From the NCBI GenBank assembly GCA_015061955.1, contig SUVO01000007.1:1-64000 (forward strand): DNA of 64,000 bases. The letters are read 5' to 3'. Positions 3,287-29,710 of the stretch are shown one piece after another (position 1 is the first letter of the stretch; the number at the start of each line of letters is the position of its first letter). The stretch comes from Verrucomicrobiaceae bacterium (lineage in GTDB: Bacteria; Verrucomicrobiota; Verrucomicrobiia; Opitutales; Intestinicryptomonadaceae). The translations under genes were made by a program, and so were the position numbers. The notes beneath the pieces were generated by a model. It was given only the letters and a program-made list of their open reading frames with translations, did not search any database and was not told the origin of the DNA.

Positions 3287-3362
3287 ATTGACTTTTGTTT
3301 TTTGTAGTAGTTTTCTTGTGTTGTTCTTTTAAATGGGCTATGCCCAAAATATAATTGCGATG

Positions 3363-3531
3363 TTTTTTGCCAAACGGAAGTTCCGTGAAGTATTTTTATG
3401 CTAATTCGGACGCTGTCGCGCATCTGTAATTCCTGAAAGAGCATTCATCTTGCCACTGTCAAATTCGACGGGAAGGTGTGAGTGCTGGATTTCATAAATC
3501 CTATATGGATAAGCCAGAAGACGTGGTAAAA
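3363..3531 (+). promoter_or_regulatory. Cobalamin riboswitch 1
   Basis: The B12 box AGCCAGAAGAC is at 3512-3522, preceded by the conserved core parts CTGTAAT (3424), GCCACTG (3452) and GGGAAGGTG (3470). A closing P1 stem can be drawn between TTTTTGCC (3364-3371) and GGTAAAAA (3524-3531). Adenosyl- or methylcobalamin binding is expected to repress the downstream genes. The stretch 3532-3696 carries the expression platform, including CTTGCCTGCGAAGTTCTCG and a distal AACACG / CGTGTT pair, and ends with AAGGAG just before the next start. Target: the PEP-CTERM gene and BtuB-like receptor that follow. Confidence 0.93.
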
Positions 3532-3696
3532 AGCCTTGCCTGCGAAGTTCTCGCGTAAAAGAAGTTCGAGGTGCATTAGTGAGTTTTTTTAACACGTTTA
3601 TTTAGGGTTGTTGTGCGTGTTTTATAGAAATCTCCTTAATTGCGTTTTGCACTCTTTTTGTAAGAACTTTGCAAAACAAATCAATAAGGAGATAAT

Positions 3697-7701: not shown

Positions 7702-7752
7702 TGTTTGACAAATTTCAATAAATTATAGATTCTTTCCTTGTTCTTTAATTTT

Positions 7753-7911
7753 ACATTCCTTACTCAAACGGAAACCTTGTGAAAATCAAGTGCGGTCTCG
7801 CCGCTGTAATTTTCAAAGACAATCTACTAAGCCACTGTTGAAAAATGGGAAGGCAGATTGTTGCTAAGCTACCTTAGATGAAATGAGCCAGAAGACGTGT
7901 GTGTAGGAAGT
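7753..7911 (+). promoter_or_regulatory. Cobalamin riboswitch 2
   Basis: B12 box AGCCAGAAGAC at 7886-7896, with upstream core elements GGTCTCGCCGCTGTAAT (7794-7810), GCCACTGTTG (7831) and TGGGAAGGC (7846); P1 can form between TTCCT (7756) and AGGAA (7905). A possible promoter TTGACA at 7705-7710 with a weak -10 17 bases on lies just inside the intergenic space, so this unit is probably transcribed separately from the receptor-1 operon. The expression platform (7912-8041) shares a TTCTCG...AAAAG...TTTCG stretch with riboswitch 1. Target: the second TonB receptor. Confidence 0.93.
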
Positions 7912-8041
7912 CCAATAAAATTCTCGAGAAAAGGATTTTCGGACATCTTTTAGTTTTCGCTTACGGGCGTATTTCTGTATAGAAGTTTAAAGGTCTATTT
8001 TCTTGAGGTTAATCCAAATCGAAGTAATGAGGAAAAAGACC

Positions 8042-22890: not shown

Positions 22891-22954
22891 AAAATATTTT
22901 TTAAAAAAAAAGCTTGATTTTTCGATAAAACAGGAATCTAATCGCAAATGCAAA

Positions 22955-23017
22955 ATGAAAAATTATTCAACAAGCTACTTTTTTTACTTCTTTTTTGTCT
23001 CACTTGGCATTCGGTAA
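22955..23017 (+). CDS. Putative Phe/Tyr-rich leader peptide
   Basis: 20-codon ORF whose core reads SYFFYFFF: five Phe and two Tyr among eight codons, then VSLGIR and stop TAA at 23015-23017. The stop falls directly after the antiterminator arm GCATTCGG (23007-23014). The composition recalls the Phe leaders of pheA and pheST in Escherichia coli. No good Shine-Dalgarno fits; a promoter-like pair TTGATT (22914-22919) and TCTAAT (22937-22942) with a 17-base spacer would start the RNA only a few bases before the ATG, so it could be leaderless. An overlapping frame from 22948 (Leu-rich) runs past the terminator and is less fitting. Confidence 0.55.
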   Translation: MKNYSTSYFFYFFFVSLGIR

Positions 23018-23086
23018 GTGATAAGTGTTGCTTGTTGTTATATAAAAACCCGAATGCTAAAAAAGATTGGCATTCGGGTTTTTTAT
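23006..23086 (+). promoter_or_regulatory. Transcription attenuator with mutually exclusive hairpins
   Basis: The terminator stem is CCCGAATGC (23049-23057) with GCATTCGGG (23070-23078), followed by TTTTTT. An identical copy of the second arm, GCATTCGG, lies upstream at 23007-23014 and can pair with the first terminator arm instead (8 bp), which would block termination. The upstream arm is the end of the leader ORF, so ribosome position can decide which hairpin forms. The controlled gene is the DRE-TIM aldolase at 23120. Confidence 0.7.
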
Positions 23087-23119: not shown

Positions 23120-24121
23120 ATGAATACAGAAAAACAAAAACAATTATCATCGGCAAGATGGATTGGATATCTTGGATACAGAAAAGAACTGCAAGTTATG
23201 GATTGCACTATTCGCGACGGGGGATTGATGAACTCTAGCCGATTTGACGATGAAGTAGTACGTGCAGTTTACGACGCATGTGGCGATGCAAATATCGACT
23301 ATATGGAAATAGGTTATAAGAATAGTAAAGAAATTTACTCTACAGACAAATTTGGTGCATGGCGTTTTTGTGCTGAAGATGATGTTCGTAGAATTATAGG
23401 TGATAATAAACGAGATGTTAAAATTGCAGTTATGGCTGATGCTGAAAAATGCGATTACAAAACAGATATCGTAAATAAAGCCGATAGTTCAATTGATGTT
23501 ATTCGTGTGGCAACATATATTCATCAAATTCCTCTCGCATTGGATATGATTAAAGATGCTACCGACAAAGGATACGAAACTACTGTAAATCTTATGGCTG
23601 TTTCTACCATTCGCGAAGCTGAACTTGACGAAGGCTTAGAAATGCTTGCTGATTCAGATGTTGGTACTATATATCTTGTTGATAGCTTTGGTTCTCTCTA
23701 TTGCGAACAGGTTCGCTACATGATGAATAAGTATCTAAAAATTGCAGGTTCTATGGGCAAACGCATTGGTATACATGCTCATAATAATTTGCAATTGGCA
23801 TTTGCTAATACCGTTGAAGCTATAAATAGTGGTGCTAATCTTGTTGATGCAACTTTGGCTGGTTTGGGCAGAGGTGCTGGTAATTGCCCATTAGAAATGT
23901 TAGTAGGTTTCTTGCATAATCCTAAATACAGAATGCGTCCACTTTTGGAATGTGTTGAAAAATACATTGAACCTATGCGTGCAAAACTTGGCTGGGGCTT
24001 CGATTATCCATATATGATGACAGGCTTCTTAAATAATCATCCACGTTCGGCTATGGAATATAACGAAAATCCAGATAAACGTGGTAAGATTGTGAACTTC
24101 TATGATGAGATAATGAAGTGA
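23120..24121 (+). CDS. DRE-TIM metallolyase / HMGL-like aldolase, substrate unknown
   Basis: 333 residues with RBS AAGGAA. The metal-binding and catalytic motifs of the 4-hydroxy-2-oxovalerate aldolase-like branch are visible: VMDCTIRDGG at about 25-34 (D-x-x-I-R-D), IHAHNNLQLAFAN at about 220-232 (HxH metal ligands) and GRGAGNCPLEML near 255. There is no C-terminal regulatory domain of isopropylmalate synthase type. It should make or break a C-C bond next to a keto acid. The upstream Phe/Tyr-rich leader and attenuator suggest a link to aromatic amino acid supply, which is an inference. It ends about 160 bases before rpsP, with only an imperfect hairpin between. Confidence 0.75.
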   Translation: MNTEKQKQLSSARWIGYLGYRKELQVMDCTIRDGGLMNSSRFDDEVVRAVYDACGDANIDYMEIGYKNSKEIYSTDKFGAWRFCAEDDVRRIIGDNKRDVKIAVMADAEKCDYKTDIVNKADSSIDVIRVATYIHQIPLALDMIKDATDKGYETTVNLMAVSTIREAELDEGLEMLADSDVGTIYLVDSFGSLYCEQVRYMMNKYLKIAGSMGKRIGIHAHNNLQLAFANTVEAINSGANLVDATLAGLGRGAGNCPLEMLVGFLHNPKYRMRPLLECVEKYIEPMRAKLGWGFDYPYMMTGFLNNHPRSAMEYNENPDKRGKIVNFYDEIMK

Positions 24122-29354: not shown

Positions 29355-29359
29355 ATATT

Positions 29360-29710
29360 TGGAGGTGAGGGGAGTTGAACCCCTGTCCTAATGACCTTCG
29401 GATATGCCGTCTACATGTGTAGTCTCGAATTATTCTTTCTCGCCAATTAGGCTCGGACAGCCATTGGCAAGGCACCTATCAGTGAGTGGCGGCGGAAGCC
29501 CCGACAGAACAACTTCAACCCCTGTTCCCGATGTCGACGCCTGACTTCATCTATCGGGAGTCGATGAGCAGACGTGCTGCGCTTAATTAAGCAGCAATAG
29601 CGTATTCTTCGCCATTTATTGTTTTTTGTGATACATTTTTACGGAGCCAAGTATCATCTCCGACACGCAGACATAAACTACAATCAACAGTCGAATTCCG
29701 GAACACCCCC
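29360..29710 (-). ncRNA. ssrA: Transfer-messenger RNA (tmRNA)
   Basis: 351 bases on the minus strand. The acceptor stem GGGGGTG (5' end at 29710) pairs with CACCTCC (29361-29367, one G-U), discriminator A at 29360, CCA not encoded. The TpsiC arm (GGGGTTCAACTCCCC) is next to the 3' end. The tag frame ends NGEEYAIAA with stop TAA at 29587-29589; the resume codon is probably the AAA or ACA before INGEE. Pseudoknot pairs such as CCCGATAG / CTATCGGG-type segments follow the tag. It rescues stalled ribosomes with SmpB (not in the window). Confidence 0.93.

Follow-up and report, generated by a model that had tools for sequence, protein, structure and literature searches.

The locus raises two linked questions: what does the short Tyr/Phe-rich leader at 22955-23086 respond to, and what is the enzyme encoded by the gene behind it? 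The window (the whole stretch of 64,000 nt that was analysed, from a Verrucomicrobiaceae bacterium of the order Opitutales) had been described in an earlier note, in which a Phe/Tyr leader ORF, three pairing arms and a terminator were read from the letters alone as an attenuator in front of an HMGL-like aldolase gene; each of these elements was confirmed in the sequence (Table 1). We propose that transcription of the gene at 23120-24121 is controlled here by a ribosome-mediated attenuator responding to charged tRNA-Tyr and tRNA-Phe, and that this gene specifies a DAHP synthase. From the sequence comparisons presented below, we put the probability of this joint reading at roughly 0.8.

Organization of the leader region

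The leader ORF ends in a TAA stop codon (23015-23017) that lies directly 3' of arm 1, and the same octamer recurs as arm 3. A search for terminator-like hairpins with a T-rich tail returned one, at 23044-23083, against 0.1 expected, and the leader RNA was predicted to fold at -46.3 kcal/mol, compared with -24.3 kcal/mol in shuffled sequences (z -6.5; none of 200 shuffles was as good). Upstream of the ORF we identified a putative sigma-70-type promoter, with a comparable hexamer pair shortly 5' of the leader start codon in several relatives. It had been passed over by a general consensus scan that requires the second hexamer to have A as its second base. From this promoter, transcription would be expected to start near 22949, so that only a few bases would precede the ATG of the leader ORF.

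Table 1. Features of the leader region and of the gene behind it, with positions in the window
Feature	Position	Strand	Description and basis
Predicted sigma-70-type promoter	22914..22942	+	TTGATT (22914-22919), 17-nt spacer, TCTAAT (22937-22942); prediction read from sequence
Leader peptide ORF	22955..23017	+	Reads MKNYSTSYFFYFFFVSLGIR-stop; equivalent ORFs precede the homologous gene in 15 other genomes
Possible pause stem, 5' arm	22968..22975	+	CAACAAGC, just 5' of the Tyr/Phe codons; partner 23030-23037; minimum-energy fold
Regulatory codons	22976..22996	+	Tyr-Phe-Phe-Tyr-Phe-Phe-Phe; read from sequence
Antiterminator arm 1	23007..23014	+	GCATTCGG; pairs with arm 2
Possible pause stem, 3' arm	23030..23037	+	GCTTGTTG; minimum-energy fold and stems in relatives
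Intrinsic terminator	23044..23083	+	17 pairs and T-rich tail; terminator scan
Arm 2	23050..23057	+	CCGAATGC; common to antiterminator and terminator
Arm 3	23070..23077	+	GCATTCGG; 3' half of terminator stem; sequence and terminator covariation
Target gene, proposed DAHP synthase	23120..24121	+	HMGL-like DRE-TIM aldolase, 333 aa; PF00682, AlphaFold2 and fold matches

No Rfam leader family matched the leader region at its gathering score. Elsewhere in the window, two cobalamin riboswitches (3324-3544 and 7736-7918, both on the + strand) scored above the Rfam gathering score, and a tmRNA gene was found on the - strand (29359-29710, 140 bits).

The DNA here is T-rich, and Phe and Tyr codons are correspondingly easy to come by: amongst 1272 stretches of 400 nt in the window, 71 (5.6%) contained an ORF of ≤ 60 codons with at least five Phe/Tyr per eight residues, and three (0.24%) an ORF with an unbroken Phe/Tyr run of at least five that included at least two Tyr. 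Given this background, the run is no more than suggestive when taken from a single sequence. It might accordingly be argued that the hairpin is a plain terminator and the Phe/Tyr run a by-product of base composition, an explanation that would also suit the more distant homologues, as outside the window's own family we found no convincing leader before them. Against this, the codons, both alternative pairings, the spacing and the stop position are kept in 16 genomes, and paralogues elsewhere in the genome share the design, leaving the plain-terminator explanation extremely unlikely.

Conservation and covariation in relatives

The window's own family in the Opitutales (hereafter f1) provided 18 usable genomes; most of the genomes compared here are metagenome-assembled. 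A Tyr/Phe-rich leader precedes the homologous gene in 16 of them, and this conservation within one family removes a chance origin for the leader of the window; for the main copies in G015 and G017 no leader was seen. A further genome, G010, was excluded after no search of it had produced a match. It is a single contig of 2.3 Mb listed under the same genus, without a match even for AroB or prephenate dehydratase, and it may be misassigned or abnormally read.

Leaders of f1 relatives are exemplified by MNNISTSYFYYFFFVSLGIR, MHKVSSFYYYYFTYPTV, MNPRSEKFYYFYYTGVIR and MQNIWATYYFYFSFPNIGVR. Across the 16 aligned leaders, the Tyr at residue 11 is invariant, and the codons vary synonymously (TTT/TTC and TAT/TAC) with their spacing kept. 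The earlier note had held that relatives retaining the hairpins without the codons or the ORF would speak against attenuation; in the relatives checked, codons and spacing were both retained.

Both hairpins are likewise conserved as pairings. Over 14 aligned sequences, pairing between arms 1 and 2 held in 99.1% of cells and two pairs had changes on both sides, whereas the share of paired cells was ≤ 45% in a control in which the partner was slid along the sequence; for the terminator stem, 91.9% of cells were paired and ten showed changes on both sides. The antiterminator and the terminator are therefore two mutually exclusive structures with one arm in common, each with compensatory changes of its own. 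Moreover, in most genomes the match of arm 1 to arm 2 equals or exceeds that of arm 3 to arm 2, as would be expected if the antiterminator itself were under selection. A different arm set, CACCCG/CGGGTG, is found with the same geometry in G016 and G014. Finally, a stem between the bases 5' of the Tyr/Phe codons and those 3' of arm 1 recurs in most genomes and is a probable pause hairpin, for which the individual support is moderate. These comparisons refine the earlier reading by pointing to Tyr as the invariant signal, to covariation between arms 1 and 2 and to a possible additional pause stem upstream.

In most relatives the gene directly 5' of the leader is carA, and in three genomes (G016, L168:2227-3393; G014; G002) the Tyr/Phe run is itself the C-terminus of the CarA ORF. 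The ORF of G016, confirmed as CarA by NCBIfam, ends ...GLFGYFYYYVRDILAPEK-stop, and in these genomes the end of a working housekeeping gene appears to double as the leader peptide of the attenuator. This arrangement could be taken to mean that the element belongs to carA, or merely ends transcripts arriving from it. However, carA is not upstream in the window organism or in G004, the paralogue leaders described below stand at other loci, and a terminator placed 3' of carA and 5' of the HMGL-like gene can control downstream transcription only. As such, we regard an assignment of the element to carA as most improbable, and the HMGL-like gene as the target of the switch.

Ribosome position and the proposed switch

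The position of the ribosome was modelled in 16 genomes, with its edge assumed to lie 14 nt beyond the A-site codon. In this model, a stall anywhere tried within the Tyr/Phe run left arm 1 free in 13 genomes; in the other three a single arm 1 base was covered, and only when the ribosome was stalled on the very last codon. With a single exception, the stall cases computed were predicted to pair arm 1 with arm 2. With the ribosome at the stop codon, which is offset from arm 1 by one of three fixed values, arm 1 was wholly covered in 16/16 genomes and the terminator remained (-16 to -25 kcal/mol).

A switch can be proposed on this basis. When Tyr or Phe is short, the ribosome would stall on the Tyr/Phe codons, leaving arm 1 free to pair with arm 2; the terminator would be blocked and the gene transcribed. 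When both amino acids are plentiful, a ribosome at the stop codon would cover arm 1, arm 2 would pair with arm 3, and transcription would end. The attenuation logic advanced in the earlier note is supported by the conservation across 16 genomes, by the pairings with their compensatory changes and by the geometry, and we regard it as highly probable that the attenuator is real.

Leaders of paralogous genes

A covariance model was built from 14 leaders and searched against these genomes. Matches with E < 1e-4 were found only before HMGL-like genes, comprising the 14 training leaders and two that had not been used in building the model, before paralogues in G015 (1.8e-7) and G008 (1.1e-5). A third paralogue leader, in G001, was found with an E-value of 0.03. 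Two of these paralogue leaders, in G008 (L247, G008:C13) and G001 (L248, G001:C1), are Phe-dominated (FFGFYFYF and FGFCFYFYFF), and that of G015 (L249, G015:C62) is mixed (FSFYFYY). The paralogues group with the G018 gene in a clade of their own. Their leaders suggest Tyr- and Phe-controlled isozymes, and the presence of Tyr-type and Phe-type copies is reminiscent of E. coli, which has Tyr-sensitive and Phe-sensitive DAHP synthases. In G004, G005 and G009 (L165, L166 and L167) a second, diverged HMGL-like copy stands in tandem behind the main copy and has no leader of its own. We found no convincing Tyr/Phe leader before aroB or the prephenate dehydratase gene in the f1 loci examined.

The target protein belongs to the DRE-TIM superfamily

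PF00682 is the sole Pfam family matched by the target (89.7 bits against a cut-off of 29); the protein matches neither PF00793 (type I DAHP synthase) nor PF01474 (type II). The best NCBIfam models were those of 4-hydroxy-2-oxovalerate aldolase, all below cut-off (TIGR03217, 124.2 bits against an equivalog cut-off of 286). An AlphaFold2 model of the target (pLDDT 92.5) found its best fold match in 3DXI, followed by pyruvate-dependent 4-hydroxy-2-oxovalerate aldolases. The first of these, the putative aldolase BVU_2661 of Bacteroides vulgatus, is the nearest solved relative by both sequence and fold, but is only 28% identical to the target and has no assigned function.

The 4-hydroxy-2-oxovalerate aldolases (DmpG 1NVM; 4LRS, 4JN6) share the whole-barrel fold with the target (TM about 0.77), as well as the Arg/Asp and His-x-His motifs: R32, D33, H219 and H221 are invariant, so that the R-D pair and the H-x-H metal motif of DRE-TIM metallolyases are kept. 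They differ from it in sequence (22-26% identity), and the target has no dehydrogenase partner gene beside it. Furthermore, the catalytic His of 4-hydroxy-2-oxovalerate aldolase (HOA), which follows the RD pair by three residues, is replaced in the target by a Leu that is invariant in 35 sequences, indicating that the chemistry of the target is not simply that of HOA.

Known DAHP synthases are missing from f1

Each of the 18 usable f1 genomes encodes just one PF00793 protein, about 268 residues long and split in two in G018, and all four of those tested were identified as KdsA (KDO8P synthase) over the curated cut-off. The type II family PF01474 was found in none of the f1 genomes, and neither was PF01959, the archaeal-type DHQ synthase; the archaeal-type alternative pathway was ruled out, as no 3-dehydroquinate synthase II was present in 31 genomes. 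At the same time, AroB (3-dehydroquinate synthase) was detected in 16/18 f1 genomes, and confirmed as aroB in two, and prephenate dehydratase in 17/18. Beyond DAHP synthase, the f1 pathway check covered these two enzymes. In other families of the order, all 12 genomes tested have larger proteins with the length and score of DAHP synthases. Thus f1 lacks any known enzyme supplying AroB with its substrate: PF01474 is missing, and the one PF00793 protein was KdsA in each of the four cases tested. The loss may have been a single evolutionary event.

One way to close this gap would be for KdsA, which is homologous to type I DAHP synthases and is the sole PF00793 protein left in f1, to double as the DAHP synthase, with the HMGL-like gene specifying an accessory enzyme. 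We consider this very unlikely: in f1, the proteins tested had the scores of ordinary KDO8P synthases, the Tyr/Phe switch sits on the HMGL-like gene, and a complete shikimate operon is found in G229, a genome without any PF00793 protein.

Operons in the Dehalococcoidales

The last of these points comes from the Dehalococcoidales (Chloroflexota), the order of G068, in which 6/151 genomes have the HMGL-like gene. In G229 (L182:1-6308) it heads the operon HMGL-aroB-aroD-aroE-aroK-aroA-aroC, and G068 (L173) has the same order with a few extra genes, its aro genes being confirmed by NCBIfam. In those other genomes of the order that have a PF00793 gene beside aroB, the arrangement is DAHPS-aroB, usually then aroD. 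With the same operon head, and HMGL in place of DAHPS in G068 and G229, the HMGL-like gene takes the place of the DAHP synthase gene. No PF00793 or PF01474 protein was found in G229, an assembly of unstated completeness, and G068 keeps a DAHP synthase elsewhere in its genome. In G187, G123 and G054 the HMGL-like gene lies outside the aro operon, alongside DAHP synthases. G096 was considered as a third example of replacement and rejected, as a type II DAHP synthase is present.

Beyond these lineages the two enzymes commonly occur together. In the wider set, all 50 genomes with a homologue encode one or more PF00793 proteins as well, most of which resemble DAHP synthases in length and score, and strict complementarity across phyla was rejected on these grounds; G022, G049 and G068 likewise have both the HMGL-like gene and a DAHP synthase-type protein. 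It follows that the gene is frequently an additional copy, in the manner of DAHP synthase isozymes, or has other roles in some lineages. Apart from the aro operon, no conserved neighbours of the distant homologues were found. At two loci, one from a Verrucomicrobia and one from an Omnitrophota genome, a trpE-like gene is found close to the HMGL-like gene (L083:6188-7723 and L084:2153-3640).

The co-occurrence with DAHP synthases, together with the catabolic 4-hydroxy-2-oxovalerate aldolases being the best family models, is what favours a different assignment, namely that the attenuator is real and the HMGL-like enzyme carries out some other aromatic-linked step, with DAHP supplied by an unrecognized enzyme. 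In the G229 operon, however, the six other shikimate genes are present and the HMGL-like gene stands at the DAHP synthase place, so that only that step is left; independently, f1 has no known DAHP synthase and has kept AroB. Another step is consequently unlikely. On the evidence of two phyla, namely the absence of a known enzyme from the genomes of f1 and the operon replacement in the Dehalococcoidales, the target is likely to be a DAHP synthase of the DRE-TIM superfamily. The suggestion of the earlier note that the switch could reveal the function of this HMGL-like family has in this way yielded a specific prediction.

Comparison with known systems

The leader has the overall design of the enterobacterial pheA/pheST, trp and his attenuators, in which a leader peptide with regulatory codons is combined with an exclusive antiterminator and terminator and, possibly, a pause stem. 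Those attenuators differ in their targets, and the leader described here has an invariant Tyr and a predicted 5' leader of a few bases. Tyr/Phe control of a DAHP synthase is the expected logic, since in Corynebacterium glutamicum a Phe-Tyr-Phe leader peptide precedes aroF, which specifies a DAHP synthase (PMC4046766). The leader sequence and the phylum are different there, and the target is one of the two recognized DAHP synthases, in contrast to the unrelated PF00682 family found here. The type I (PF00793) and type II (PF01474) enzymes would share with the HMGL-like protein its proposed product and its place at the operon head. In the literature searched (mainly open access, without preprints), we found no report linking HMGL-like, DRE-TIM or 4-hydroxy-2-oxovalerate aldolase proteins to DAHP synthase.

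If the target is a DAHP synthase, its relatives lead us to favour, by a modest degree, pyruvate as the three-carbon substrate. An engineered KDPGal aldolase is reportedly able to replace DAHP synthase by joining pyruvate to erythrose 4-phosphate; here too the shikimate pathway would be entered from pyruvate, although that enzyme is a laboratory construct from another aldolase family. A wider proposal, for which we see the chances as evenly divided, is that the HMGL-like proteins make up a third, DRE-TIM family of DAHP synthases that use pyruvate in place of phosphoenolpyruvate, that would have replaced the classical enzyme at least twice (in f1 and in a Dehalococcoidales lineage), and that in the Opitutales would comprise Tyr- and Phe-regulated isozymes, each with its own attenuator.

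The attenuator belongs to a known kind of regulation, whilst the enzyme would add a new family to those catalysing a known reaction, with an RNA switch used to point to its identity. DAHP synthase catalyses the first step of the pathway from which aromatic amino acids, folates and quinones are supplied. If the proposal is true, a third family would fill a pathway gap in uncultured genomes that are otherwise scored as auxotrophs, and a widespread aldolase family without an assigned function would gain one; should pyruvate be the substrate, it would also represent a natural form of a shortcut otherwise known to us only from engineered systems.
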